Of a DNA stretch of 64,000 nt, positions 1,073 through 57,859 are shown piece by piece. A program made the translations under genes and the position numbers. Each line of letters starts with the position of its first letter. The first letter of the stretch is position 1. The notes below the pieces were generated by a model. The model was not told the origin of the DNA, made no database searches, and was given only the letters and a program-made list of their open reading frames with translations. The stretch is from Sulfurimonas sp. HSL3-7 (GTDB taxonomy: Bacteria > Campylobacterota > Campylobacteria > Campylobacterales > Sulfurimonadaceae): the NCBI RefSeq assembly GCF_039645985.1, contig NZ_CP147919.1:1922001-1986000 (forward strand). Direction: 5' to 3'.

Positions 1073-3416
1073 TTACTCGTAGTAGCCTTTGCTAGAGCCG
1101 TAGCCGTAACCGTAGCCATAGCCGTAACCATGGCGTTTGCTCGATTCAATGCCATTAAGAATAAAGCCGAGATTATTGAGGTCATGTTCTTTAGAGAACT
1201 TGTCCACATTTTTAAGATAGGCTTTCTTCGAGTAGTTCGCACGTGTCACGATCAAACCGATATCGGCCGTCTTCAGCAGGATCATCGCATCGCTCACCAG
1301 ACCGATCGGCGGTGTATCAAAAATAATATACGCATACTTTTCCGAGAGTGTTTGAATCAGTTGCTCGAAACCTTCTTTCACCAAAAGCTCCGATGGGTTC
1401 GGCGGCTTCGGTCCCGAAGTGATGACATCAACATTTTCCAAGACCTCTTTTTGCAGGGCCTCTTCGAGTGTGTTGCTGCCTGAAAGCACGGAGCTCACAC
1501 CGATCTTGTTCGTAATATTGAACTCTTCATGCATACGGGAACGACGCATATCCAGATCAAGTATGATCACTTTTTTGCCGGTTGCGGCAATCATCTTGGC
1601 CAGTGAAACCGCGATAATTGTCTTGCCTTCACCCGAGATCGAAGAGGTCAATGCAACGATCTTGGATTTTTTGGTACCGCCCACAAACTGCAGGTTCGTA
1701 CGAAGCACACGCATCGCCTCTTCAAACTGCGAATACCCCCTCTTGTTCTTACGTTGCGGGATAGCACCATAGAGGGGAATAGTGCTGATCTTATCGAAAT
1801 CCTCAGCTGTTTTAAGGGTATCGTCCAGAAAAGAGCGTAAAAAGGCCGAAGCGACCCCGACGATAAGCCCAAGGATCATCCCCACTAAAATAATAAACAG
1901 ACGTTTTGGTTTGATAGGGAGCTTCGGCAGCAGTACCGAATCAAGCACACGTGTTTTCGATATGGTCGAGGAGCTTAAGATTGCCGTTTCGGCCCGTTTT
2001 TCCAACAGATAATTATAGACTTTCTCGTTGACCGTCGTATTACGCGTCAGGTTCGCCAATCTTCGTTCATTTTCAGGAAGTGCTTCCAGCGAACGTTGAT
2101 ATTTGCTAATATACTGCTGCAGCTTCTGTTTGCGCTCTTCGATGATGCGCAGATCATTCTTCAGTGTATATTTAATCGATGATTTCAAAGTTGATCGTTT
2201 CTGTCAGTTTGATCACATCCGGATGCAGTTCGGTGAACTCGACCAGGAGGGATTGACGTGCCATCATGTTCTCTTGAAACTGTTGGATCATCTGCGCCAG
2301 TGCCGGATCCGTAGCGCCGGCAGAGCCCAGGCTGATACCGGCGAGATCTTTGCCGGTATTGACGAACTCCTGAACATTCTTCAAGATACTCGATTCGATC
2401 TCAAGTGTCTGGAGCCGACTCTCATACTCAGCCATGTTCTGTGCCGTGATCATCGCCTGCTGGCCGGTATCGACAATCGTATGTTTCGCACGGAACTGCT
2501 CCAGCTGCCCCTGGGTTCGCTCAACATCCTTGTTGATCTCGGCGATCTGTGCATCGATAAAGGCCAAGGCTCGATCCGCCTCCAGGGTCTTCTCCTCCAG
2601 CTCTTGCTGCAGGTAGCGTTCTATCAGGGCGCTGAGCACCTGTTTCGCACGGAGCGCAACGTTGTCTTGAAAAGTGATCTTCAGTATCGAACCATTTTCA
2701 GAAGCCAAAGCGGTCGAAAGGCCTTCGTTAATAAACTTGTGCATCGCTTCATTGGGTGTGATCGAAAAGGAATACTCTTTTTCAACCCGGGTCAACGATC
2801 TTTTCGATCTTAATACTGAACCACCCGGTGACGATCTCTTCGCCGAATCTATGTATATCTTCGTAAGGTTTCGGTTCATCCGCAGGCGCTTCGATAAAAC
2901 CAAACTGCCGTAAAAGTCTCTCTCTTATCTCTATATCAGGCGTCATCCTCAGAATGAAACGGTCACTGCCCAGCATATCCATATAAAAACGGGTTCCATT
3001 TAAACGCTTATCGAGCGTTTTTGCCGTCACTAAAAATGGGGGAAGCACGATAAAGCTCGACAGTACGGTAATTGCGCTTCGTAAAGTACCGTGTACCGAT
3101 ATCGAGCCCAGCAAGGACCTTCTCCGCAAGGAAACGAGACTGGATAATATACTGCTCATCTTCGAGATTGGCACTATTTCCGGCAAGAGCAAGGGCCATC
3201 GTATCACTGTTATCGCCTCTCAAACGAGGATCTTCTCGCTGGAGTTCTATTGTCGTCGCCGCTTCATAGACATTGTGGTGTAAAATAGGCAAAGACGGCC
3301 GAACCGATGGTAAAGACGATCATAAAAATAATAATAGAATATTTATACCGGTTGAGCGTGCTGAAGACCTCTTTGAGGTCGATCTCATCTTTATCGATGG
3401 TAGGGTATGTGTTCAT
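1073..3416 (-). pseudogene. wzc: Frameshifted copy of wzc (polysaccharide copolymerase / BY-kinase)
   Basis: Relative to the intact gene at 38668-41010, this copy carries four in-gene frameshifts: a 2-nt deletion near 2189, and single-base insertions near 2787 (CC to CCC), 3038 (GGGG to GGGGG) and 3271 (TGGG to TGTGG). The reading frame is split into pieces at about 1073-2188, 2172-2790, 2790-3036 and 3036-3271. The longest piece still encodes the second membrane helix, the Walker A kinase region (SGEGKT), the Walker A' segment ILDLDMRRSR and the tyrosine-rich tail, but it has no obvious ribosome binding site. The ATG at 3416 is 5 bp after the wza stop, compared with 7 bp in the other copy. 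The indels without substitutions could be true decay after a recent duplication or uncorrected errors in a repeat. Confidence 0.8.
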
Positions 3417-3421
3417 TACTC

Positions 3422-4222
3422 TTACCACGCTTTGGCTAGGTAGGTAATGCTTACAAACGGTTCTAACATCGACGCAACCAGCTGAAACGGCGGTGCGATC
3501 TCATCAAAGGCGAGCTGACGTCCTTTAGATGCACGCGGCTGTACATAGACGATATCGTTCGGTTTGAGATAAAGACTTGCAATCCTGACGGCCGACATCT
3601 GGGTCAGATCGATCGTACGGACCTGTGGGTTGCGCAGGTCCCCGCGGATTACCAGGATACCCCGGCGCTCTGCATAGTCGGTCAGGTCTCCCGAACGGGC
3701 GATCGCTTCGATCAGGTTCATCGTACCGTTTGTCACCTGTACTACACCCGGCGTGTTGACCTCGCCTAAAAGAAAGATGCGCTGATTCATGATCTCTACC
3801 GTGACATACGGGGTGCGAATGTATTTCTTATACTCTTTCATTAAATACTTCGCCGCCTCGTCTTGCGTATAGCCCTCGATCTTGACACTGCCGATCAGTG
3901 GCAGATCCACCGTCCCCTCTCGCGTTACCAAAAGACCTGTCGTCTCATCGGGTACTCTGCCCCCCGTTGGCGTGCCGCGTGAACTTGAACTGATCATCGC
4001 CGTCAGCTCGCCCGGACCTGACTGATTATAAACGATGATATTCACACGGTCATTAGGCTGTATCCTGTTCTCGAATACCATCTCATCCTGATACACCTTC
4101 TCGTTTACCTCCGTCGGCTCCTCCGAACGCTCGTCGTCCTGAAACAAGGTGTACCTTTTCATACTGCACCCGGAGAAAAAAAAGAGCGCCAAAACGGTGA
4201 TCAAAATAGTTTGTCTTAACAT
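3422..4222 (-). CDS. wza: Outer-membrane polysaccharide export lipoprotein (Wza/OPX family), left copy
   Basis: This 266-residue protein is identical in sequence to the product of 41018-41818. It has a lipoprotein signal with lipobox FFSGC, a Poly_export domain in the first half (NDRVNIIVYNQSGPGEL, then DLPLIGSVKIEGYTQDEA) and an SLBB-like domain around residues 145-220 (RIFLLGEVNTPGVVQ). It is shorter than E. coli Wza and lacks an obvious C-terminal amphipathic barrel helix; the C-terminus VSITYLAKAW suggests a membrane-proximal segment. OPX proteins of this size export capsule or EPS through the periplasm together with a Wzc-like partner, here the frameshifted gene immediately downstream. 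The wbqC end of the EPS operon lies upstream, so this copy may be read through from that block or from its own promoter. Confidence 0.9.
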   Translation of the reverse strand: MLRQTILITVLALFFFSGCSMKRYTLFQDDERSEEPTEVNEKVYQDEMVFENRIQPNDRVNIIVYNQSGPGELTAMISSSSRGTPTGGRVPDETTGLLVTREGTVDLPLIGSVKIEGYTQDEAAKYLMKEYKKYIRTPYVTVEIMNQRIFLLGEVNTPGVVQVTNGTMNLIEAIARSGDLTDYAERRGILVIRGDLRNPQVRTIDLTQMSAVRIASLYLKPNDIVYVQPRASKGRQLAFDEIAPPFQLVASMLEPFVSITYLAKAW

Positions 4223-15280: not shown

Positions 15281-16735
15281 TTGTACTTATCGACTAAAAA
15301 AAGTTTTTTGACATTACTCATCACAGTCGCTTTTCTGACAGGTTGTCAAGAAGATGCCAATCAAACAAGCAGCAGTACTGCACTAGCACCTAAGGTAAAG
15401 ACAACACTACCACCGGGCTTAGCTAAAAAAACTACTACAGAGACAGAACCTGTTGTTGAAGAGACACTTCCCGTTGTTGAAGAAACTCAACCTGTCGTTG
15501 AAGAGACACTTCCCGTTGTTGAAGAAACTCAACCTGTCATTGAAGAGACACTTCCCGTTGTTGAAGAAACTCAACCTGTCGTTGAAGAGACACTTCCCGT
15601 TGTTGAAGAGACACTTCCCGTTGTTGAAGAGACACAACCTGTCGTTGAAGAGACGCTACCCGTTGTGGAAGAGACACAACCTGTCGTTGAAGAGACGCTA
15701 CCTGTAGTGGAAGAGACACAACCTGTCGTTGCAGTATGTGTAGAAGGCGATGCAATGATCGAAGGCCATGTCACTGACAAAGCGACAGGCAGCGGATTAG
15801 CCGATGTGCAGATCAATGTGGGCGGATGTGCCACAGCAACCGATGAGAACGGCTATTTTACACTCTCCAACATTGCTGAAACTGAAAACGCCGTTGTCAA
15901 TTTTGAAAAAGAGGGCTACCTGCTTGGCAGTACACGTATTCAGGTTGATCTCTATGCGGAAGGTACAACCACTGCTTCTTCGAATTATCTCGAGTACGCT
16001 ATAGGTACCTATACTTCACAATGGAGTTATGACAGCCAGACCGCAGTTGCCGGTGCCCATCTTGACATACCTACTGATGTCTATGCAGATATGTCAGGTA
16101 ATGCCTATCACGGTACTGTTACTGCAGGATTAAAAATAGTGGATGTCACTACAGAGGAAGGCAAAGAACTGTTTCCAGGTACTTTTGAAGGGAAAAATGT
16201 CAATGGGGAGACAGTGTTGTTTAGCTCTTACGGCCTGATCAGCCTATCACTCAAAGATACTGGCGGTAATGCACTAAATCTTGCAGATGGCGCTACAGCA
16301 ACATTGACATTTGATGCCGTTACCTCTCTAGAAGAGAAGAACATTATTCCGCTATGGTATTATGACTACAGCCAAGGGACCTGGATCGAAGAAGGCTATG
16401 CAGAACTCCAGTCGGATGGAACATATGTGGGGAGCATTTCACACGTTGGTACATGGAGTCTAAATATGCCGCTAGAGACGTCGCCTGGCACATACCGCGG
16501 CCGAATCGTGTATAGCGATGGAGTCACGGTTAAAGATGCAAGAGTAGCTCTTATCGGACCTAACTGGATGAGAAGCGATTTGTCAACTGATGCTGATGGG
16601 CTATTTGAAGTTACCGTCGTTCCCGGTGATGATTTCCAAATTGTAGCTTATAACTATAAATGGAAATATGAAGCTGCACATGCCAACGTATTACCGGCTG
16701 TCGCTTCGGGTGAAATTGTTGAAGACAGGATCTAA
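15281..16735 (+). CDS. Riboswitch-controlled lipoprotein with 7-residue repeats and carboxypeptidase-regulatory-like domains
   Basis: The predicted product of about 484 residues has a lipoprotein signal with lipobox LTGC. Next comes a low-complexity stalk of thirteen PVVEETL/Q repeats (nt 15449-15730), then a carboxypeptidase-regulatory-like beta sandwich (GHVTDKATGSGLADVQINVG, DENGYFTLSN). A central domain follows (FPGTFEGKNV..., IPLWYYDYSQGTWIEEGYAE) that recalls ZU5/CILP-like modules, and a second regulatory-like sandwich (YRGRIVYSDGVTVKDARVAL) closes the protein. It is probably surface-exposed. The frame opens at 15236, but TTG at 15281 has AAGGA seven bases upstream and gives a normal 22-residue lipoprotein signal. 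Tandem c-di-GMP-I aptamers precede it. A paralogue without the repeats is at 17793. Confidence 0.8.
   Translation: MYLSTKKSFLTLLITVAFLTGCQEDANQTSSSTALAPKVKTTLPPGLAKKTTTETEPVVEETLPVVEETQPVVEETLPVVEETQPVIEETLPVVEETQPVVEETLPVVEETLPVVEETQPVVEETLPVVEETQPVVEETLPVVEETQPVVAVCVEGDAMIEGHVTDKATGSGLADVQINVGGCATATDENGYFTLSNIAETENAVVNFEKEGYLLGSTRIQVDLYAEGTTTASSNYLEYAIGTYTSQWSYDSQTAVAGAHLDIPTDVYADMSGNAYHGTVTAGLKIVDVTTEEGKELFPGTFEGKNVNGETVLFSSYGLISLSLKDTGGNALNLADGATATLTFDAVTSLEEKNIIPLWYYDYSQGTWIEEGYAELQSDGTYVGSISHVGTWSLNMPLETSPGTYRGRIVYSDGVTVKDARVALIGPNWMRSDLSTDADGLFEVTVVPGDDFQIVAYNYKWKYEAAHANVLPAVASGEIVEDRI
15449..15730 (+). repeat. In-frame 21-bp tandem repeat (about 13 copies)
   Basis: The unit encodes PVVEETL or PVVEETQ, with L and Q forms mostly alternating so that a 42-bp higher-order repeat is visible. 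Neighbouring units are nearly identical at DNA level, indicating recent slippage or recombination. Copy number is likely to vary between strains. Confidence 0.95.
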
Positions 16736-38667: not shown

Positions 38668-41010
38668 TTACTCGTAGTAGCCTTTGCTAGAGCCGTAGCC
38701 GTAACCGTAGCCATAGCCGTAACCATGGCGTTTGCTCGATTCAATGCCATTAAGAATAAAGCCGAGATTATTGAGGTCATGTTCTTTAGAGAACTTGTCC
38801 ACATTTTTAAGATAGGCTTTCTTCGAGTAGTTCGCACGTGTCACGATCAAACCGATATCGGCCGTCTTCAGCAGGATCATCGCATCGCTCACCAGACCGA
38901 TCGGCGGTGTATCAAAAATAATATACGCATACTTTTCCGAGAGTGTTTGAATCAGTTGCTCGAAACCTTCTTTCACCAAAAGCTCCGATGGGTTCGGCGG
39001 CTTCGGTCCCGAAGTGATGACATCAACATTTTCCAAGACCTCTTTTTGCAGGGCCTCTTCGAGTGTGTTGCTGCCTGAAAGCACGGAGCTCACACCGATC
39101 TTGTTCGTAATATTGAACTCTTCATGCATACGGGAACGACGCATATCCAGATCAAGTATGATCACTTTTTTGCCGGTTGCGGCAATCATCTTGGCCAGTG
39201 AAACCGCGATAATTGTCTTGCCTTCACCCGAGATCGAAGAGGTCAATGCAACGATCTTGGATTTTTTGGTACCGCCCACAAACTGCAGGTTCGTACGAAG
39301 CACACGCATCGCCTCTTCAAACTGCGAATACCCCCTCTTGTTCTTACGTTGCGGGATAGCACCATAGAGGGGAATAGTGCTGATCTTATCGAAATCCTCA
39401 GCTGTTTTAAGGGTATCGTCCAGAAAAGAGCGTAAAAAGGCCGAAGCGACCCCGACGATAAGCCCAAGGATCATCCCCACTAAAATAATAAACAGACGTT
39501 TTGGTTTGATAGGGAGCTTCGGCAGCAGTACCGAATCAAGCACACGTGTTTTCGATATGGTCGAGGAGCTTAAGATTGCCGTTTCGGCCCGTTTTTCCAA
39601 CAGATAATTATAGACTTTCTCGTTGACCGTCGTATTACGCGTCAGGTTCGCCAATCTTCGTTCATTTTCAGGAAGTGCTTCCAGCGAACGTTGATATTTG
39701 CTAATATACTGCTGCAGCTTCTGTTTGCGCTCTTCGATGATGCGCAGATCATTCTTCAGTGTATATTTAATCGATGATTTCAAAGAGTTGATCGTTTCTG
39801 TCAGTTTGATCACATCCGGATGCAGTTCGGTGAACTCGACCAGGAGGGATTGACGTGCCATCATGTTCTCTTGAAACTGTTGGATCATCTGCGCCAGTGC
39901 CGGATCCGTAGCGCCGGCAGAGCCCAGGCTGATACCGGCGAGATCTTTGCCGGTATTGACGAACTCCTGAACATTCTTCAAGATACTCGATTCGATCTCA
40001 AGTGTCTGGAGCCGACTCTCATACTCAGCCATGTTCTGTGCCGTGATCATCGCCTGCTGGCCGGTATCGACAATCGTATGTTTCGCACGGAACTGCTCCA
40101 GCTGCCCCTGGGTTCGCTCAACATCCTTGTTGATCTCGGCGATCTGTGCATCGATAAAGGCCAAGGCTCGATCCGCCTCCAGGGTCTTCTCCTCCAGCTC
40201 TTGCTGCAGGTAGCGTTCTATCAGGGCGCTGAGCACCTGTTTCGCACGGAGCGCAACGTTGTCTTGAAAAGTGATCTTCAGTATCGAACCATTTTCAGAA
40301 GCCAAAGCGGTCGAAAGGCCTTCGTTAATAAACTTGTGCATCGCTTCATTGGGTGTGATCGAAAAGGAATACTCTTTTTCAACCGGGTCAACGATCTTTT
40401 CGATCTTAATACTGAACCACCCGGTGACGATCTCTTCGCCGAATCTATGTATATCTTCGTAAGGTTTCGGTTCATCCGCAGGCGCTTCGATAAAACCAAA
40501 CTGCCGTAAAAGTCTCTCTCTTATCTCTATATCAGGCGTCATCCTCAGAATGAAACGGTCACTGCCCAGCATATCCATATAAAAACGGGTTCCATTTAAA
40601 CGCTTATCGAGCGTTTTTGCCGTCACTAAAAATGGGGAAGCACGATAAAGCTCGACAGTACGGTAATTGCGCTTCGTAAAGTACCGTGTACCGATATCGA
40701 GCCCAGCAAGGACCTTCTCCGCAAGGAAACGAGACTGGATAATATACTGCTCATCTTCGAGATTGGCACTATTTCCGGCAAGAGCAAGGGCCATCGTATC
40801 ACTGTTATCGCCTCTCAAACGAGGATCTTCTCGCTGGAGTTCTATTGTCGTCGCCGCTTCATAGACATTGGGTGTAAAATAGGCAAAGACGGCCGAACCG
40901 ATGGTAAAGACGATCATAAAAATAATAATAGAATATTTATACCGGTTGAGCGTGCTGAAGACCTCTTTGAGGTCGATCTCATCTTTATCGATGGTAGGGT
41001 ATGTGTTCAT
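38668..41010 (-). CDS. wzc: Polysaccharide copolymerase / bacterial tyrosine kinase (intact copy)
   Basis: The 780-residue protein has an N-terminal Wzz-type domain with a first membrane helix (YSIIIFMIVFTIGSAVFAYF), a long periplasmic coiled region and a second helix near residue 520 (IILVGMILGLIVGVASAFL). A C-terminal BY-kinase domain follows, with Walker A SSISGEGKTIIAVSLAK near residue 595, Walker A' IILDLDMRRSR and IIFDTPPIG. The end RHGYGYGYGYGYG...GYYE is a tyrosine cluster for autophosphorylation. It controls EPS chain length and export together with Wza, encoded just upstream (7 bp between stop and start). This is the working copy; the left copy is frameshifted. Confidence 0.96.
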   Translation of the reverse strand: MNTYPTIDKDEIDLKEVFSTLNRYKYSIIIFMIVFTIGSAVFAYFTPNVYEAATTIELQREDPRLRGDNSDTMALALAGNSANLEDEQYIIQSRFLAEKVLAGLDIGTRYFTKRNYRTVELYRASPFLVTAKTLDKRLNGTRFYMDMLGSDRFILRMTPDIEIRERLLRQFGFIEAPADEPKPYEDIHRFGEEIVTGWFSIKIEKIVDPVEKEYSFSITPNEAMHKFINEGLSTALASENGSILKITFQDNVALRAKQVLSALIERYLQQELEEKTLEADRALAFIDAQIAEINKDVERTQGQLEQFRAKHTIVDTGQQAMITAQNMAEYESRLQTLEIESSILKNVQEFVNTGKDLAGISLGSAGATDPALAQMIQQFQENMMARQSLLVEFTELHPDVIKLTETINSLKSSIKYTLKNDLRIIEERKQKLQQYISKYQRSLEALPENERRLANLTRNTTVNEKVYNYLLEKRAETAILSSSTISKTRVLDSVLLPKLPIKPKRLFIILVGMILGLIVGVASAFLRSFLDDTLKTAEDFDKISTIPLYGAIPQRKNKRGYSQFEEAMRVLRTNLQFVGGTKKSKIVALTSSISGEGKTIIAVSLAKMIAATGKKVIILDLDMRRSRMHEEFNITNKIGVSSVLSGSNTLEEALQKEVLENVDVITSGPKPPNPSELLVKEGFEQLIQTLSEKYAYIIFDTPPIGLVSDAMILLKTADIGLIVTRANYSKKAYLKNVDKFSKEHDLNNLGFILNGIESSKRHGYGYGYGYGYGSSKGYYE

Positions 41011-41017
41011 ATTACTC

Positions 41018-41818
41018 TTACCACGCTTTGGCTAGGTAGGTAATGCTTACAAACGGTTCTAACATCGACGCAACCAGCTGAAACGGCGGTGCGATCTCAT
41101 CAAAGGCGAGCTGACGTCCTTTAGATGCACGCGGCTGTACATAGACGATATCGTTCGGTTTGAGATAAAGACTTGCAATCCTGACGGCCGACATCTGGGT
41201 CAGATCGATCGTACGGACCTGTGGGTTGCGCAGGTCCCCGCGGATTACCAGGATACCCCGGCGCTCTGCATAGTCGGTCAGGTCTCCCGAACGGGCGATC
41301 GCTTCGATCAGGTTCATCGTACCGTTTGTCACCTGTACTACACCCGGCGTGTTGACCTCGCCTAAAAGAAAGATGCGCTGATTCATGATCTCTACCGTGA
41401 CATACGGGGTGCGAATGTATTTCTTATACTCTTTCATTAAATACTTCGCCGCCTCGTCTTGCGTATAGCCCTCGATCTTGACACTGCCGATCAGTGGCAG
41501 ATCCACCGTCCCCTCTCGCGTTACCAAAAGACCTGTCGTCTCATCGGGTACTCTGCCCCCCGTTGGCGTGCCGCGTGAACTTGAACTGATCATCGCCGTC
41601 AGCTCGCCCGGACCTGACTGATTATAAACGATGATATTCACACGGTCATTAGGCTGTATCCTGTTCTCGAATACCATCTCATCCTGATACACCTTCTCGT
41701 TTACCTCCGTCGGCTCCTCCGAACGCTCGTCGTCCTGAAACAAGGTGTACCTTTTCATACTGCACCCGGAGAAAAAAAAGAGCGCCAAAACGGTGATCAA
41801 AATAGTTTGTCTTAACAT
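41018..41818 (-). CDS. wza: Outer-membrane polysaccharide export lipoprotein (Wza/OPX family), right copy
   Basis: The same 266-residue protein as at 3422-4222: lipobox FFSGC, Poly_export domain (NDRVNIIVYNQSGPGEL) and one SLBB-like domain (RIFLLGEVNTPGVVQ). It is the first gene of the long minus-strand EPS operon and should be co-translated with the intact wzc. Its promoter region differs from the left copy beyond 73 bp, so the two may be expressed under different conditions. Confidence 0.93.
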   Translation of the reverse strand: MLRQTILITVLALFFFSGCSMKRYTLFQDDERSEEPTEVNEKVYQDEMVFENRIQPNDRVNIIVYNQSGPGELTAMISSSSRGTPTGGRVPDETTGLLVTREGTVDLPLIGSVKIEGYTQDEAAKYLMKEYKKYIRTPYVTVEIMNQRIFLLGEVNTPGVVQVTNGTMNLIEAIARSGDLTDYAERRGILVIRGDLRNPQVRTIDLTQMSAVRIASLYLKPNDIVYVQPRASKGRQLAFDEIAPPFQLVASMLEPFVSITYLAKAW

Positions 41819-42650: not shown

Positions 42651-42674
42651 GATTAAGTGGCTCCGGATACTGGA
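42651..42674 (+). mobile_element. Left attachment site (attL) of the tRNA-Asn island
   Basis: This 24-bp stretch repeats 57778-57801 with one mismatch and contains the last 17 bases of tRNA-Asn including its encoded CCA (TGGCTCCGGATACTGGA on this strand). Similarity stops at once outside. It is the displaced tRNA 3' end expected at the far side of a tRNA-integrated element. Confidence 0.9.
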
Positions 42675-42752
42675 AACCATTTTTAAAACCTCTATATACC
42701 ATCAAATGCCCTATGTATCGAAGTTTTCAAAGTTAAAAGATTGTCAAAAAAA

Positions 42753-42817
42753 GGTGTCTTTTGGGTCATAAATAGCACCAAATGGACACCGACAATCTAT
42801 AAATGTCCATAGGTGTC
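42753..42817. promoter_or_regulatory. Three GACACC motifs inside the left end of the island
   Basis: GGTGTC at 42753-42758, GACACC at 42785-42790 and GGTGTC at 42812-42817 lie 80-145 bp inside attL. Two more (57715-57720 and 57726-57731) lie just inside attR. The context AAAAGACACC and TTGACACC recurs on both sides, as expected for integrase arm-type sites; the right-hand pair is also coding, so chance is possible. Confidence 0.35.
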
Positions 42818-50427: not shown

Positions 50428-50970
50428 TCAACAAATATCTCGATGACAACTTAGGATATCAATATCAATATCTTTAAAATCGGTATCATTTGTTAATAAT
50501 ACGAATTGATTTTCATCACATATCTTCACAATAGCCTTGTCAGAAAAATCTAAAGTATCTACTGTACACATTAAAGTTAAGTCATGTATTGAATAACTTT
50601 TTTCTACTACTTCAAACTCACGAAATATATCTTCAGTTACAGTTAAATATATATCTTCTAAAGCCTTTTGCCCATCTTCACTATTTCTATATTTTTTATA
50701 TGGCCATTCTTCTTCAATAAGGGTATAGCTTTCTAGGTAATTTTTATATTCAATCTTAATAGCTCTATTTATAAATTCTGATATAACGATGAAGTCTAAT
50801 ACAAATTTACTATCTTGAGCATTTAATTTTGAATATAATCTAGCATATTTTTCTTCCCAAGAAGAGGAAGTACTTGCCCAAAAAAGATATATCAAAACAT
50901 TCGCATCAAAAAAAATTTTTTTATCACTAATATTTCTTATATTTGATGGGTTATATCTATTCGCCATCAT
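50428..50970 (-). CDS. PIN-domain nuclease
   Basis: A PIN-fold protein of about 180 residues with KIFFDANVLIYLF (first acidic residue), FIVISEFINRAIK (Glu), DTLDFSDKAIVKIC (Asp) and FVLLTNDTDFKDI (final Asp). PIN proteins are RNases, mostly toxins, but this one has no small antitoxin; its partners are the STAS-like and ATPase genes. The frame overlaps the end of the STAS-like gene. The ATG at 50970 is chosen because AGGTG sits just upstream; the next ATG and a GTG at 50976 are alternatives. Confidence 0.82.
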   Translation of the reverse strand: MMANRYNPSNIRNISDKKIFFDANVLIYLFWASTSSSWEEKYARLYSKLNAQDSKFVLDFIVISEFINRAIKIEYKNYLESYTLIEEEWPYKKYRNSEDGQKALEDIYLTVTEDIFREFEVVEKSYSIHDLTLMCTVDTLDFSDKAIVKICDENQFVLLTNDTDFKDIDIDILSCHRDIC

Positions 50971-51316
50971 CTTCACCTAAAATTTCTTTAATGGATTCTT
51001 TCATTTTGTCAGGATTACTAAAATAGTTTTTTGCATTTGTTACAACCCTTTTGAGCCTAACCTTACCACTTTCAGATAGGTTTTCTACCGATAAACTATC
51101 TTTTAATTTAGCTTCTTCAAATTCTCCATAAAGCTTTCCTATAGCATTATTTAAAAAGGCCGTTGTTAGTTTTTCAACATTTTTAAAATTAATTATAGTT
51201 TTTTTATTTTCTACTAAAGCCTTTTTTATAGTTTGATAAACTTTATCTCCATCTTCAGGCAAGGTACAATCTTTTTGCCCAACAATGCTGAAAACATTTA
51301 TTTTCATTTCATCCAT
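50957..51316 (-). CDS. STAS-like domain protein (DUF4325 type)
   Basis: The 119-residue protein is a single alpha/beta domain with KALVENKKTIINFKNVEKLT, TTAFLNNAIGKLYGEF and SGKVRLKRVVTNAKNYF, the pattern of STAS-like DUF4325 proteins. In other systems STAS domains pair with serine-kinase or GHKL ATPases as in anti-sigma/anti-anti-sigma switches. Here it follows a GHKL ATPase by 9 bp and overlaps the PIN gene, suggesting a switch that senses a signal and controls the nuclease. Confidence 0.78.
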   Translation of the reverse strand: MDEMKINVFSIVGQKDCTLPEDGDKVYQTIKKALVENKKTIINFKNVEKLTTAFLNNAIGKLYGEFEEAKLKDSLSVENLSESGKVRLKRVVTNAKNYFSNPDKMKESIKEILGEDDGE

Positions 51317-51325
51317 AATAGTCCC

Positions 51326-52198
51326 TTAAAATATATCATTTATATCTATCTCTTCAACTTCACTTAGAAGACGATATGTTTTATTGTCATCTGTTTTAAA
51401 TGTCATGCTAATTACTGAACCCTGAAAAAAACTGTCTAATTCTTGTATTGTCTCACTACCGTTACTAAGTTCATACAAGGCATTTCCACTAATAATTTGT
51501 ATTTTACCCTTATTTTGCGTAATAAACTCTTGAAGTAAAGCGAGTCCTAAACCTCCAGAAACACCTTGTTTAGTTGTATTCCCGTCTATCATAGCCCATT
51601 TAATGGCATCCTTAGAAGTGATAACTTCTTTTAAGTTTTTCTCAATCCTTTTTGCAAAACCTATTCCTGTATCCACAATAGTAAAATTAATTTTGTCCTG
51701 CATGTGAAAATATTGTCCACAAGTGTATATAAACTCTGTTTCACTATGAATTTGAGCATTGACAAACATTTCTTGAATAGACTCACTGATTTTTTCATGC
51801 ACAGCATCACTCATCTTCGGTAAACCACTTCTTTTTAGCAAGTCATCTTCTAAATACTGGTTAAAATATCTACTATCAGACGGTTTTAATTTTTTATACT
51901 CAATCGTACTATGATATGTATCGTAAATTTTATCATATCCGTAAAATGCAAGAAAACCATTTTTTTGTAAAATTGTTTGAATATCATTCTTAATGCTTAT
52001 AAATACTATATCATTGATCCCACCATTTTCTATTTTATCAAGTATGCCACCTAAAACAGCACAGAGATTTGCATCAAACCATTGAGTCAGTTCTATTTCA
52101 ATATTTTCAAAAAAATCATCCTTATATTTATCATAAAGCTTTATCAGTTGATTATACCCATCTAAATCGTTATGTACATTTGATAATATGAAACTCAT
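51326..52198 (-). CDS. GHKL-type ATPase with an N-terminal STAS-like region
   Basis: The 290-residue protein has a GHKL ATP-binding domain in its second half: N-box ESIQEMFVNAQIHSE, G1 FTIVDTGIGFAKRI and G2 GVSGGLGLALLQEFI, then GSVISMTFK. The first 120 residues (IEIELTQWFDANLCAVLGGI, INDIVFISIKNDIQ) look like a divergent STAS-like fold. There is no histidine phosphorylation site or receiver, so it is not a typical sensor kinase. Its ATG overlaps the stop of an hsdR 3' remnant. It forms a tight operon with the STAS-like and PIN genes. Confidence 0.78.
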   Translation of the reverse strand: MSFILSNVHNDLDGYNQLIKLYDKYKDDFFENIEIELTQWFDANLCAVLGGILDKIENGGINDIVFISIKNDIQTILQKNGFLAFYGYDKIYDTYHSTIEYKKLKPSDSRYFNQYLEDDLLKRSGLPKMSDAVHEKISESIQEMFVNAQIHSETEFIYTCGQYFHMQDKINFTIVDTGIGFAKRIEKNLKEVITSKDAIKWAMIDGNTTKQGVSGGLGLALLQEFITQNKGKIQIISGNALYELSNGSETIQELDSFFQGSVISMTFKTDDNKTYRLLSEVEEIDINDIF

Positions 52199-52287
52199 TT
52201 ATATATCTCCCTTTGCAGCTCAAAATACTCATCTCGCATCTGAGGTATACCACCAAAATTATTAGCCACTTCTCGCACTGTTCCCAT
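52195..52287 (-). pseudogene. Duplicated 3' end of hsdR (93-bp scar)
   Basis: The 93 bp encode GTVREVANNFGGIPQMRDEY and the rest of an HsdR C-terminus, ending REIYK and a TGA that overlaps the ATPase start (ATGA). The intact hsdR end at 52986-53078 differs at about 10 of 93 bases and has the same overlap with the gene that follows it. The remnant starts exactly at an internal Met codon. It shows that the ATPase gene once directly followed an hsdR allele, and that the unknown gene at 52366 was inserted with a new hsdR end. Confidence 0.88.
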
Positions 52288-52365
52288 TCTGCTTTCAATT
52301 TAATATAGAAATAAATACTTGGCTCTGCCTTTTCTAAGTTTTTTTGCCATAATACTTCATTTACA

Positions 52366-52989
52366 TCAGTTAGTAATTTTTTCTTCTAGTTCACAGAAGT
52401 TCAATCCATATCTTTTTTCTATTAGTTCGATTGTTTTCAATATTGCTTTACTTATATGTAACTGGTTTGCACCAAAAGGATAATATGCAGAATAGAGTTC
52501 ATTAGCATTCATACTATTATTTAAATAATGTGTTTTTGGTTGTTTTTCATTATTTTTGTAATAATAAAATGGATATTTAAATTCTCTTCCTTCATCTAGC
52601 CATTGCCCCCAGCTTCCGTAGTTTTGGATGTGTCCATTATAGCATTGACCACCAATAGTACTTTCCAATAAGATAAATAATTGTTTCAGTTTATCTATTT
52701 TTTGATTTCGTTCATATACTGATAACCTTTGAGTGACTTCTTCGAGTTGTTCAGTATAACTATTGCCCACATTATCTGCCAAATTTTTATATTCTTCAAT
52801 TATTTTATCTGGTACACTATCACACTGTAGTGTCTGTAACTGATTATATGCATTAATTTCTTCATCAATTAATGCTTGGATTTCTTCGTCTGCCTCTTCT
52901 TGTGTATACCCACAATTTACTAGAAATGAGTTTTCTTCTTTAGTTTGTTTTACAATCTTGTCCAACACTATTTTTGGTACATTCTTCAT
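52366..52989 (-). CDS. Unknown protein coupled to hsdR
   Basis: A 207-residue protein with no recognised domain. The N-terminal half is helical and acidic (QEEADEEIQALIDEEINAYN, YTEQLEEVTQRLSVYERNQK, likely coiled coil). The second half has an aromatic and Gly-rich segment (GGQCYNGHIQNYGSWGQWLD) and ends with a helix (ISKAILKTIELIEKRYGLNF). The start overlaps the hsdR stop (ATGA), so translation is coupled. It is the gene newly placed at the hsdR 3' end, between the true end and the 93-bp scar, and may be an exchangeable defence or regulatory accessory. Confidence 0.65.
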   Translation of the reverse strand: MKNVPKIVLDKIVKQTKEENSFLVNCGYTQEEADEEIQALIDEEINAYNQLQTLQCDSVPDKIIEEYKNLADNVGNSYTEQLEEVTQRLSVYERNQKIDKLKQLFILLESTIGGQCYNGHIQNYGSWGQWLDEGREFKYPFYYYKNNEKQPKTHYLNNSMNANELYSAYYPFGANQLHISKAILKTIELIEKRYGLNFCELEEKITN

Positions 52990-55334
52990 TTGTATATCTC
53001 CTTTTGTAATCCAAAATACTCATCCCGCATCTGTGGTATACCACCAAAGTTATTAGCTACTTCTCGCACTGTTCCCATGCCACTTAGATCAACAAGATTG
53101 CCGAGTTTATCTTCGTCGAGCTCTTTGACACCGTCTTTTTTGTACCTGTTTAAAATGAACTCTAAAAACTCTTTGGCCTTTTCGTTATGGATCTTTTCAA
53201 AGAAGTCGCCATGCTCCACAGAGAAGACCCGTTCGCTTCTCGTTTTTATGTCGAGGTTAAATGACAAGTGTGCCAGTACGTCGTAGATGTCGCTCTCTTC
53301 TGCCTCAAAGATGGTTTTTAGATCCTCTAGCTGGGATTCGTCGATATTCATCTCTCTAAGCTTGTCAAGCAAATCCTTCCTGTTGGTTGGGTTGCTCCAT
53401 ATCTCTCTTAGCCCTTCTTCGTTGTTGTAGAACTTGCCGAGTACGCCGATGAGCAGTTCTAGGTAATCTTCTGTTTTGAGAGGGATGCCGTCAACACCCA
53501 CATAGGTTGTTTCTATGTTGATGACTTTGAGTTTCTTGCCTTTGATGTCGATGGTGACTATGTTGCTGCCATAAGTGGGCTGCGTTTCACCTACCGTGTC
53601 GTCACCGGGTTCGGGTGTCGGATACTCGGGTTTATCTTTCGGCTCTTTCGGTTCTCTTTTTCCACTCCCAATAGAAGGTTCATCTTCTCCATCCCAGGCC
53701 GGATCATAAAAGAGGTTCGTTGCACCGACAAAGTCCATGATTGTAAAGAAGTCTTTTCCTTCAAACACCCTCGTGCCACGACCGATGATCTGCTTGAATT
53801 CGGTCATGGACTTTATGGGCGCCGTCAGAACAACGTTTCTAACATTTTTGGCATCAACGCCCGTTGTCAGCATTTTGGAGCTTGTGAGGATCGTAGGAAT
53901 GTCTCTGTCGTTGTTTTGAAACATCTCCAAAAAGTCTCGGCCTATGTCTCCCTCGTCCGAAGTGACCCGTACACAGTAGTTATTATCTTTGATGGTTTTA
54001 AACTTGTCGATAGCGATTTTCATGTCCGAAGCATGTTGCTGATTCACACAGAAGATTATCGTTTTGTCCATCGGGTTCATGTTTTCTAGAATCGTTTTCG
54101 CGATGAGCTCGGTGCGTTTCGGAATGACGACCTGTTTCTCGAATTTCTCCAGCTCTACTATCTGTTTGTCCAGCTCACCTGTAATGATGTCGTTCGGATC
54201 AAACCGATATTCGTCTATGTTTGTCTGGATTCTCTTGACTTTGTAAGGTGTCAAGAAACCGTCGTTAATACCGTCTTTGAGAGAATATTCATAGATTGGA
54301 TCGCCGAAGTATTTGTAAGTATCGCCGTTGTCATCTCTTTTCGGTGTTGCGGTAAGTCCTAAATGCACAGCACTGCCAAAATGATCTAAAATAGCTCGCC
54401 AGCTACTCTCATCGTTAGCGCTACCTCTATGACATTCGTCAATGATGACAAGGTCGAAAAAGTTGGACGGATACTGCTTGTAGTAAGCGGTCACATCGTC
54501 CTCTTGCTCTTCTTCGGAAGTCTCTATCACTCTGTTTTTGTTCTCTGCAATGGACTGGTAGATCGCAAAAAAGATGTTTCCAGCCGTAGGAACTTTTCCA
54601 CCCCGTTTTTTGATGTTCTTTCCGTTTATCTCGACACAATCTTTTTCAAGAGGGTTGAACGTATTGATAGACTGATCTTTAAGTACGTTTCTGTCAGCTA
54701 AGAAAAGTATCTTGGGTCTTCTGTCGGCATTATCCCTGTTCCATTTGGATTGAAACAGTCTGTAGGCAATTTGAAAAGCGATGTAGGTTTTGCCTGTCCC
54801 CGTTGCAAGCGTTAGAAGCACCCTGTCCGCACTGTTTGCAATGGCTTCTATGGTTTTTTGAACCGCAATTTGCTGATAGAAACGAGGTTTCATCGTTCCT
54901 TCAATGTGGAAAGGGTGGGTAATGACTTCTTGTACTTTTGGCGTTGGTCTGCCGTACTTTCTCTCAAAGAGCTCATCAGGCGTCGGATAGTCCTCGATGT
55001 ATCTTCCATTGCCGTCTTTCAGTGAATGCTCATAGATCTTATGACCGTTGGTAGTATAGACATAATCAATGCGAAGACGTTCGGCATAGTTGATGGATTG
55101 TTGCAGGCCGTCCAGCGGGTCTCTGTTTTCGGCTTTTGCTTCGATGATGGCAAGGTTGGTGTTCTTGTAGGTCAGTAGGTAATCGACAAAATATCGCTTA
55201 CCACGCTTACCGCCGATGAGCTTTCGGCCATCCGTGAAATAGTACTCCCTAACGATATGTGCTTCATTCCACCCGCTACCTTTGATTTTCGGGTCGATAA
55301 GTTTTGAACGTGTGTCTGATTCAGAGTATGCCAT
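52986..55334 (-). CDS. hsdR: Type I restriction endonuclease subunit
   Basis: The 782-residue protein has an N-terminal PD-(D/E)xK nuclease region (VDYLLTYKNTNLAIIEAKAE), a DEAD-like translocase with Walker A LLTLATGTGKTYIAFQIAY and Walker B FFDLVIIDECHRGSANDESS, and the helicase motifs TATPKRDD and GIDAKN-like TGVDAKNVRNV. The C-terminal third (from about residue 600) is of the EcoEI_R_C type. This length fits the EcoEI-like group, shorter than EcoKI HsdR. It cuts unmodified DNA after translocation. It is the first gene of the defence operon. Confidence 0.95.
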   Translation of the reverse strand: MAYSESDTRSKLIDPKIKGSGWNEAHIVREYYFTDGRKLIGGKRGKRYFVDYLLTYKNTNLAIIEAKAENRDPLDGLQQSINYAERLRIDYVYTTNGHKIYEHSLKDGNGRYIEDYPTPDELFERKYGRPTPKVQEVITHPFHIEGTMKPRFYQQIAVQKTIEAIANSADRVLLTLATGTGKTYIAFQIAYRLFQSKWNRDNADRRPKILFLADRNVLKDQSINTFNPLEKDCVEINGKNIKKRGGKVPTAGNIFFAIYQSIAENKNRVIETSEEEQEDDVTAYYKQYPSNFFDLVIIDECHRGSANDESSWRAILDHFGSAVHLGLTATPKRDDNGDTYKYFGDPIYEYSLKDGINDGFLTPYKVKRIQTNIDEYRFDPNDIITGELDKQIVELEKFEKQVVIPKRTELIAKTILENMNPMDKTIIFCVNQQHASDMKIAIDKFKTIKDNNYCVRVTSDEGDIGRDFLEMFQNNDRDIPTILTSSKMLTTGVDAKNVRNVVLTAPIKSMTEFKQIIGRGTRVFEGKDFFTIMDFVGATNLFYDPAWDGEDEPSIGSGKREPKEPKDKPEYPTPEPGDDTVGETQPTYGSNIVTIDIKGKKLKVINIETTYVGVDGIPLKTEDYLELLIGVLGKFYNNEEGLREIWSNPTNRKDLLDKLREMNIDESQLEDLKTIFEAEESDIYDVLAHLSFNLDIKTRSERVFSVEHGDFFEKIHNEKAKEFLEFILNRYKKDGVKELDEDKLGNLVDLSGMGTVREVANNFGGIPQMRDEYFGLQKEIYK

Positions 55335-55505: not shown

Positions 55506-55826
55506 GCTTGCCAATCTAAAAATCTCTGATTTTTCGGTGGGCTATACCTGATTGTCTTGCTAAATCGAGGGGATATTACCCCAAAAAACGACTAATGTCC
55601 TTCAAACCCCTAAAAGTTGGGCTTTAAACGATGCTAGCAGACGGATTGCTTCCGTAAGCATGATCGGGGTAAAAATGGATATACCCAAAAAAATGGGTGT
55701 ATCCCAACAAAGCCCTGAAAACAGGACTATAAAGCTGGTAAAAACCACTAAAATCGGGCATTTGCAAATCGTATCCCTTTCACGGTTTGGAGATATACCC
55801 CGAAAAATTCGCACAAGTCTGTGTCT
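55506..55826. other. Gap between hsdR and the GATACA array
   Basis: No gene is supported. The stretch has several short complementary pieces such as ATACCCA/TGGGTGTAT around 55681-55702 and repeated 'ACCCC/GGGGT' motifs, which may form local hairpins. Open frames here on the minus strand are continuations of the repeat array and are not called. Confidence 0.4.
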
Positions 55827-56080
55827 GATACATTCTGATATATAATTGATACATTGCTGATAACACGCCGATACACAATTGATACATATCTGATACATTG
55901 GCGCAACATATTGATACATTTGCGATACATGATGAGAACATATTGATACATTGCTGATAACACGCCGATACACAATTGATACATATCTGATACATTGGCG
56001 CAACATGTTGATACATTTGCGATACATGATGAGAACATATTGATACATTCCTGATACATCAATTGATACACTTTGATACA
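55827..56080 (+). repeat. Helically phased iteron-like array of 17 GATACA motifs, with a 97-bp tandem repeat
   Basis: GATACA starts at 55827, 55848, 55870, 55881, 55892, 55913, 55924, 55945, 55967, 55978, 55989, 56010, 56021, 56042, 56053, 56065 and 56075. All gaps are 10-12 or 21-22 bp, so the motifs sit on one face of the helix with a unit of about 10.8 bp; several missing places hold weaker versions (GATAAC, GAACAT). Units 55851-55947 and 55948-56044 are a 97-bp tandem repeat differing at one base. It lies 120 bp upstream of the Xis-like gene. It resembles plasmid iterons, ParR-type centromeres or cooperative Xis filaments. Confidence 0.9.
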
Positions 56081-56111
56081 TGCTAATGCATGATGTCATT
56101 GTTCATTTCGT

Positions 56112-56199: not shown

Positions 56200-56523
56200 A
56201 TGAAAGTAGATTTCGAAGTACTTGAACAGATTCCCAAACTTTTGGAAGTCATGCTTCAGGTCAAAAGCACCCTTGAAACCAACAGTACTGAAAAACGTTG
56301 GCTGAACACAAAAGAGTTGGCGGAGTACACCGGCTATAAACTGGAAACCATTAAAGCCAAGATCAAAAAAAATGACTTTGTACTGGGTACTCATTATTAT
56401 AAGCGCGAAGGCAAACTGCTCTTTGACAAGAGTGAAGTAGATAACTGGGTAATGGGAATAGATTCTGTCAATAACAGTACCTATACCAAGATCGATGCTT
56501 TGTTCGAAGAAGTCTTGGGATAA
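56200..56523 (+). CDS. Xis/AlpA-like helix-turn-helix protein
   Basis: The 107-residue protein has a MerR/excisionase-type winged helix (about residues 33-85): RWLNTKELAEYTGYKLETIK and LLFDKSEVDNWVMG. Such proteins act as excisionases or as regulators of the neighbouring integrase. A short N-terminal helix (EVLEQIPKLLEVMLQ) may dimerise it. AAAGGAG precedes the ATG. It sits between the GATACA array and the integrase, so the array is a natural candidate for its binding region. Confidence 0.82.
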   Translation: MKVDFEVLEQIPKLLEVMLQVKSTLETNSTEKRWLNTKELAEYTGYKLETIKAKIKKNDFVLGTHYYKREGKLLFDKSEVDNWVMGIDSVNNSTYTKIDALFEEVLG

Positions 56524-56619: not shown

Positions 56620-57753
56620 ATGAAACTGTATGTAAAAAAAGTCAAAAATGTAAAAGGCGAAGTCAAAGAGACTCTTTGGGTCAGGTTTTATGATCACCAT
56701 AGAAAGCTGATCCGCAAGCCTCTGAAACTTTCCAACACAAAGGCCAATAGAAAATTGGCAGAGACACAACTGATTCCACAATTGATGCTCAAGCTTCACA
56801 GTGGAGAGTTCTTTAATAAAACAGCACCAACACTTAACGAGTACATGCGTACCTCTTTCGAGATGAACAAGTCTCGAAGACGTGCCACTACGCAAAACGA
56901 TTATCAGATATCGTACGATAAACATATCGAACCGCATCTGGGTCATATGAAACTTGATAAGATCAAAGCCTCCGATCTGGAGCTTTGGCAGAACAAGGTT
57001 TTGGAAAGTGTCTCGCCAAGGCGTCTGAAGAATATCAGAGCTGTTCTTAGCGGTATACTAAATGATGCTTATCGTGATGAGCTGATTTCCAAAAACCCGC
57101 TCACCTTGGTCAAGACGATTAAGGCTGAGAAAGTTGAGATTCATCCTTTTTCCCTCTCGGAGATTTCAGAGATATTGGAGAATTCGGAAGGTCAGGACAG
57201 GAACTTCTTTGCTCTGGCCTTTTTCACCGGGATGCGCAGCGGTGAGATGATCGGTTTGAAGTGGTGTGACATCGATTTCAAGAAGATGGAGATCCATATC
57301 CAGCGCTCACGAAAAATGGGTGTTAATACGCCTCCTAAGACCGAATCGAGCAACAGGGTGATAGATATACTGGACTCACTCTATGTTTACCTTCAGAGCC
57401 AATACAAGCTCACTGGAGATAAAAACTCGTATGTCTTCTTGAATGAAGGTGATGAACCGATATATGACATCAAACGAATTCGAGATCGAGCTTGGAAAAA
57501 GACGCTTAAAGTATGTGAATTGGAGTATCGTCCTATCTATCATACACGTCATACCTTTGCAACAGTGATGTTGGAGAATGGTGAGGATATACTCTGGGTG
57601 TCAAACATGTTAGGGCATACGGATTCGACAATGACACTGAGTCGTTATGCTCGTTATGTGAAGAGAAAAGAGAGAAAAAGAGGTCAGTTTTTACAGCAAG
57701 AACTGGCACTAAAAGACACCGAATTGACACCGAGTAATAATTATGTTGCTTGA
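56620..57753 (+). CDS. Tyrosine recombinase / integrase of the island
   Basis: The 377-residue protein has an N-terminal arm-binding-like region, a SAM-like core-binding domain (NDYQISYDKHIEPHLGHMKL) and a catalytic domain. The catalytic residues are Arg in FFTGMRSGEMIGLKW, His-x-x-Arg in YHTRHTFATVML, His in MLGHTDSTMTLS and the nucleophilic Tyr in SRYARYVK. It should integrate and excise the element at tRNA-Asn, 32 bp away. Two GACACC motifs lie in its last codons. The start at 56620 follows AAAGGATCG. Confidence 0.95.
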   Translation: MKLYVKKVKNVKGEVKETLWVRFYDHHRKLIRKPLKLSNTKANRKLAETQLIPQLMLKLHSGEFFNKTAPTLNEYMRTSFEMNKSRRRATTQNDYQISYDKHIEPHLGHMKLDKIKASDLELWQNKVLESVSPRRLKNIRAVLSGILNDAYRDELISKNPLTLVKTIKAEKVEIHPFSLSEISEILENSEGQDRNFFALAFFTGMRSGEMIGLKWCDIDFKKMEIHIQRSRKMGVNTPPKTESSNRVIDILDSLYVYLQSQYKLTGDKNSYVFLNEGDEPIYDIKRIRDRAWKKTLKVCELEYRPIYHTRHTFATVMLENGEDILWVSNMLGHTDSTMTLSRYARYVKRKERKRGQFLQQELALKDTELTPSNNYVA

Positions 57754-57777: not shown

Positions 57778-57801
57778 GATTGAGTGGCTCCGGATACTGG
57801 A
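57778..57801 (+). mobile_element. Right attachment site (attR) overlapping tRNA-Asn
   Basis: 24 bp matching 42651-42674 with one mismatch; the last 17 bases are the 3' end of tRNA-Asn with CCA. Because the tRNA stays intact, the island inserted downstream of the tRNA's 3' end. Confidence 0.9.
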
Positions 57802-57859
57802 TTCGAACCAGTGACCAAATGATTAACAGTCATCTACTCTACCGCTGAGCTAATCCGGA
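57785..57859 (-). tRNA. tRNA-Asn (GTT)
   Basis: A 75-nt tRNA with encoded CCA. The acceptor stem is TCCGGAT/ATCCGGA, the anticodon loop CTGTTAA reads GTT and the T-arm contains GGTTCGAATCC. It is the integration site of the island. Confidence 0.97.

Follow-up and report, generated by a model that had tools for sequence, protein, structure and literature searches.

What might a long array of short direct repeats do just ahead of the xis and int genes of a defence island in which no replication genes were found? The array in question belongs to Sulfurimonas sp. HSL3-7 and lies in a stretch of 64,000 nucleotides, hereafter the window. Within it, a 15.1-kb island sits in tRNA-Asn, and a 19-bp repeat, AGTGGCTCCGGATACTGGA, marks its two ends, starting at 42656 and at 57783. 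The first copy (42656-42674) is the attL core, a copy of the tRNA-Asn 3' end; the second (57783-57801) is the attR core and is itself the 3' end of tRNA-Asn (57785-57859). With att repeats, tRNA-Asn and integrase all found, the integrative-element setting assumed in a first-pass annotation of this DNA is confirmed. The island encodes a WYL regulator, a DUF1173-like protein, HsdS, HsdM, PIN, DUF4325 and HATPase proteins, a 207-aa protein, and the type I restriction subunit HsdR (52986-55334, minus strand). After hsdR, which diverges from it, comes the array region, followed by the gene for a 107-aa Xis-like protein with an HTH_17 helix-turn-helix (56200-56523, plus strand) and that for a 377-aa tyrosine integrase (56620-57753, plus strand). 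Replication, relaxase and partition genes were not found in the island, either with Pfam or by comparison with the genes of relatives. The PIN, DUF4325 (STAS-like), HATPase and 207-aa genes between hsdM and hsdR (50428-52989) are possibly a second defence module embedded in the type I restriction-modification (RM) operon.

An array of phased GATACA units

Seventeen exact GATACA motifs, all on the plus strand, lie between 55827 and 56080 at spacings of only 10-12 or 21-22 bp, which reproduces the count and spacings first reported. In dinucleotide shuffles of the same 254 bp (n = 2000), the motif occurs 0.96 times on average and at most 5 times. Every 21-22 bp gap holds one degenerate unit in register, namely GATATAT at 55837, GATAACA at 55859 and 55956, GCAACAT at 55903 and 56000, or GAGAACA at 55934 and 56031. 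The array (55827-56085, plus strand; consensus YGATACATNNN) thus consists of 24 contiguous units of 10-12 bp, 17 exact and 7 degenerate, with a mean step of 10.78 bp. The core consensus is YGATACAT, and in its GATACA part two bases, G at position 1 and A at position 4, are invariant across all 24 units. Nine of these units make up a 97-bp segment that is tandemly duplicated, as had been noted, at 55845-55941 and 55942-56038 (both plus strand; 96/97 identical, i.e., one difference).

The phase coherence of the array is 0.98 at 10.8 bp, a value reached by none of 20,000 random placements, and it is still 0.97 when the second copy of the duplication is left out; at 10.5 bp, by contrast, the coherence is only 0.40. 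The sites therefore track a face that rotates slowly, and do not stay strictly on a single face of relaxed B-DNA. Such a slow winding of units round relaxed B-DNA would fit a protein superhelix better than a fixed face.

The divergent hsdR and xis genes are separated by 865 bp, and the array lies inside this interval. The non-coding stretch between hsdR and the array (55560-55826, plus strand) has strong hairpin potential (DNA fold z of -3.9 for 55560-55830) and includes the hairpin GGATATACCCAAAAAAATGGGTGTATCC at 55677-55704 (plus strand), with one inverted GATACA. The AT content of the array region ranges from 54 to 74% in 50-bp steps, with no clear AT-rich peak. Two other identities were considered for this region and rejected: a minus-strand coding sequence (165 aa) belongs to no Pfam family, and among known RNAs only tRNAs score above their thresholds. 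The intergenic DNA of the array region has no plasmid or phage match, and only short matches elsewhere in the bacterial family, several of them at the hsdR promoter. The 2.87-Mb genome of the organism, a single contig, holds no second array, and with one GATACA pair outside the array it shows no GATACA-pair regulon.

The Xis-like protein as a candidate binder

Recombination directionality factors (RDFs) are described as occupying tandem repeats at intervals of one DNA turn, head to tail and cooperatively (PMC7498355); lambda Xis is counted with Apl and RdfS among those that recognise such direct repeats close to att. In phage 186, Apl binds cooperatively to 6-bp operators at 10-11 bp spacing, seven of which lie between pR and pL and a further five at attP (PMC7498355). 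RdfS of ICEMlSym-R7A binds attP as well as the promoter of rdfS itself, and in crystals it forms a head-to-tail filament by way of an oligomerising N-terminal helix (PMC11963761). With direct repeats of about 6 bp at intervals of one helical turn, the array matches the definition of RDF operators (PMC7498355). Because known RDFs recognise direct repeats with this spacing, some of them also at their own promoter, an RDF reading fits best, and the array would appear to work most like an RDF operator array. We therefore tentatively favor the interpretation that its 24 units are operators for the island's own RDF, i.e., the 107-aa Xis-like protein. Of the three ideas offered in the first-pass annotation, a platform for an Xis filament is thus the best supported, by likeness to known RDFs (PMC7498355, PMC11963761).

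As we infer it, each unit would take up one Xis protomer, and the protomers, arranged head to tail, would polymerise along the 10.8-bp step; the resulting filament would bend and cover the DNA ahead of xis-int. Occupancy of the array would then regulate xis-int, most simply by autorepression or by buffering the level of Xis, and the array could also nucleate or titrate Xis destined for the att site. If the Xis-like protein does bind, this would be by far the longest directionality-factor operator array found described, and its 24 in-register sites would offer a natural substrate for filament cooperativity, spreading and autoregulation.

The 107-aa protein matches HTH_17 with an E-value of 3.2e-5 and 24.6 bits, below the 27-bit Pfam cutoff; its gene adjoins that of the tyrosine integrase. 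Its N-terminal stretch is conserved among relatives, and viral relatives were not found. A structure model from the single sequence has a mean pLDDT of 66, too weak for the fold comparison, which was not significant.

Six strong matches to the array unit, identified with a PWM, lie outside the array in the 64 kb, and one of them, CGATACAT (42713-42720, minus strand), falls 39 bp inside attL; about 0.02 such matches are expected by chance, a post hoc figure for 100 bp at each end. It lies within a conserved P-arm block, ATACCATCAAATGCCCTATGTATC (42696-42719), a candidate Xis region with homologous blocks in relatives. In the nearest relatives the block lies roughly 20-60 bp inward of the core and reads approximately ATACCATCAAATACC; it contains ATACC..ATACC with a 10-bp spacing and has only ATAC in common with the array word.

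The integrase has arm sites of its own. Defined from the att regions of relatives, those of its family read GRCACM and follow one another at 10-11 bp; as a rule the P arm has two of them and the P' arm two or three. Here, GCACC and GACACC lie about 11 bp apart at 42775-42790 (P arm, plus strand), and GGCACT, GACACC and GACACC lie 10-11 bp apart at 57705-57731 (P' arm, in the 3' end of int, plus strand), the latter three being conserved in relatives. The arm sites are thus a different 11-bp-phased word at both ends, and the array is not simply a set of integrase arm sites.

Further features that agree with the RDF reading are the position of the array directly upstream of an HTH_17 gene whose N-terminal stretch is kept in relatives, the failure to find rep, mob or par genes in the island, the lack of a GATACA-pair regulon in the host, and the strong unit just inside attL. 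Its weak points are that no related xis gene examined has an array; that the att region offers the single strong unit and no cluster, as opposed to the cooperative cluster that an RDF needs; and that the RDF operator sets found described have 5-7 units, far fewer than the 24 here. Also against it, the array ends about 115 bp ahead of the xis start, with no confident promoter found between the two. The array is real and highly ordered, several times longer than any such strip found described, and so far seen only in this island; its membership of the RDF operators is putative.

The Apl operators, like the array, are 6-bp direct repeats 10-11 bp apart, and lie in a promoter region controlled by an RDF, as proposed for the array, but they number 7 + 5, with a matching attP cluster, as against 24 units, one strong att match and a presumed binder (PMC7498355). 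RdfS, like the predicted form of the island's protein, is a wHTH RDF with an N-terminal helix in an integrative element; however, it has no consensus motif, unlike the strict motif of the array (PMC11963761). BldC, a MerR-like wHTH protein that forms head-to-tail oligomers on direct repeats, is close to the favored arrangement, but it is a developmental regulator of Streptomyces with few 9-bp repeats (PMC5859096). We also considered RptR, a repressor with direct repeats beside a type I RM system, and set it aside, its 9-bp repeats being palindromic and different (PMC12255303).

Related elements and alternative explanations

The integrase family of the island is common in its bacterial family, and its elements are often in tRNA-Asn. 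The relatives examined carry xis and int, and ahead of these two there are usually genes of replication type, i.e., for a replicase and a small protein of 83-94 aa, sometimes with an RHH-like gene; in L334, an MbeA-like relaxase takes their place (labels partly by eye). In most relatives in which the region is seen, the genes immediately before xis encode a Rep protein or a relaxase. No phased chain was found at 25 other xis loci or at 29 other int loci, and none at L388, whose xis is 47% identical. Absence of the array from related islands, which the first-pass annotation had named as part of a refutation, thus speaks against a conserved role. Our survey places the integrase family in a series of elements in which Rep and relaxase modules replace one another at a single position ahead of xis: L334 to L340 and L371 to L390 form an element family (about 4-18 kb where both ends are seen), often in tRNA genes, whose members swap replicase or relaxase modules at that position.

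Since relatives with the same int and xis mostly carry replication-type genes (L334, a relaxase) where this island has the array region, the array might instead be the initiator-binding part of the excised circle's replication origin, with the initiator encoded elsewhere, by a helper element or a phage. In two genomes of the same bacterial family, phased GATACA clusters adjoin replicases, namely a P4-type primase-helicase (L138 = G027) and, in L224/L284 (G080; units at about 0, 11, 21, 44 and 65), a replicase whose N-terminal part is that of a DnaB, and these two clusters (L138 via G027; L224) make an orphan origin a serious rival; the strongly structured flank at 55560-55826 is consistent with it. 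We nevertheless consider it unlikely. An iteron origin would be expected to have its cognate initiator gene nearby, and no initiator was found in the island; the organism's own genome has no relative of the L138 primase-helicase, and it matches the G080 replicase in a DnaB-like stretch at the N-terminus only. There is no perfect DnaA box near the array, and outside the array we found no convincing similarity to origin-like regions of the L138/G080 type, nor to that of L342, although the G080 and L342 regions align with each other. Furthermore, judged by eye, the Rep proteins of some relatives resemble rolling-circle types, and iteron arrays are not used by such proteins. The first-pass annotation had also proposed a partition site; because no gene for either function was found in the island, origin and partition site alike would be possible only with a protein acting in trans. 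In the latter case, the array would be a centromere-like site served by the protein of a co-resident plasmid. ParR centromeres are similar to the array in step. StbA of R388 acts on ten 9-bp repeats that are separated by 2-bp spacers, and these stbDR repeats, TTGCATCAT, share the 11-bp step of the array and lie around the promoter of the DNA-binding gene (PMC3098194); SGI1, also an integrative island, has cis sites of a helper's partition system, borrowing IncC ParABS (PMC10954446). GATACA triplets, read by eye, also lie 10-21 bp upstream of RHH-like genes elsewhere (L066, L088 and L205, among the matches listed). However, the stbDR repeats form two sets of five on a plasmid, parS of SGI1 is palindromic, in two copies and with a known helper, and in ParR and StbA centromeres the repeats share an operon with a partition or Stb gene, whereas no ParM, ParA, StbA or RHH gene was found in the island and its one-contig genome has no other array; a centromere is thus quite improbable. 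A more general variant, no likelier than the orphan origin, is that this non-autonomous defence island uses its 24-unit strip to capture a helper's polymerising initiator or centromere protein for its own replication or segregation, titrating the helper. If a helper protein does bind, this would explain the maintenance of a defence island that lacks replication genes.

The array could also be a relic, i.e., a decayed origin or operator, enlarged through tandem duplication and now without a function. The recent 97-bp duplication is in line with this, as is the fact that the array has so far been seen only in this island and in none of the relatives examined; a relic is improbable, however, as the register is held over 24 units, degenerate ones included, by compensating steps of 10, 11 and 12 bp. 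Even more doubtful is that the array serves a host regulator of sulfur genes. About 14 genomes of the family have three 11-bp-phased TGATA-type units some 30-45 bp before an sqr-like gene, and the organism's own genome has such triplets before its sqr-like gene and two other genes. Nonetheless, these sites were found using the array's own word, so that the likeness arises partly by selection; the base after TGATA is C in about 1 of 8 own-genome units as against 19 of 24 array units; and the degenerate array units keep ACAT and break TGATA. The array therefore departs from the sqr-type host operator, three copies of TGATA with a free sixth base.

Phased repeats elsewhere and other features of the window

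The TGATA sets before the sqr-like flavoprotein gene are likely sites of a host regulator. They occur in L392, L403-L405, L407, L410, L412-L415, L417, L419, L422 and L423, and in the organism's own genome in L440, at about 2995-3045 on the minus strand. Its two other triplets, at 831825-831851 (L429) and 1709385-1709422 (L427), precede a PsrB/NrfC-like Fe-S operon and a gene for a secreted protein of about 800 aa, respectively.

Our pattern scans covered genome and viral collections. Many of the genome matches listed are 12-bp coding repeats or perfect microsatellites; the viral collection gave 65 matches for the motif and 29 for the reversed motif. Among the phased GATACA clusters listed, those of L073, L138, L168, L184 and L224 lie in replicase-like neighbourhoods, and those of L086 and L135 in integrase or tRNA neighbourhoods. 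L138 (6376-6700) and L285 (2990-3350) are P4-type satellites with primase-helicases 79% identical, and their downstream repeated words are GATACAC and ATGGACG, respectively. Paludibacteraceae MAGs (L042, L056, L108, L119, L129, L146 and others) have many non-coding 11-bp arrays, several per genome, that read, e.g., GATACATTAAC or GATAGATTAAC.

Elsewhere in the window, polysaccharide-export-type genes occur in duplicate, at 1073-4222 and 38668-41818; their 266-aa protein looks identical in both, and its 780-aa partner is encoded by a single ORF at one of the two places but is split at the other. A 21-bp coding tandem repeat with an 84-bp higher order, in 14 copies, lies at 15439-15731.
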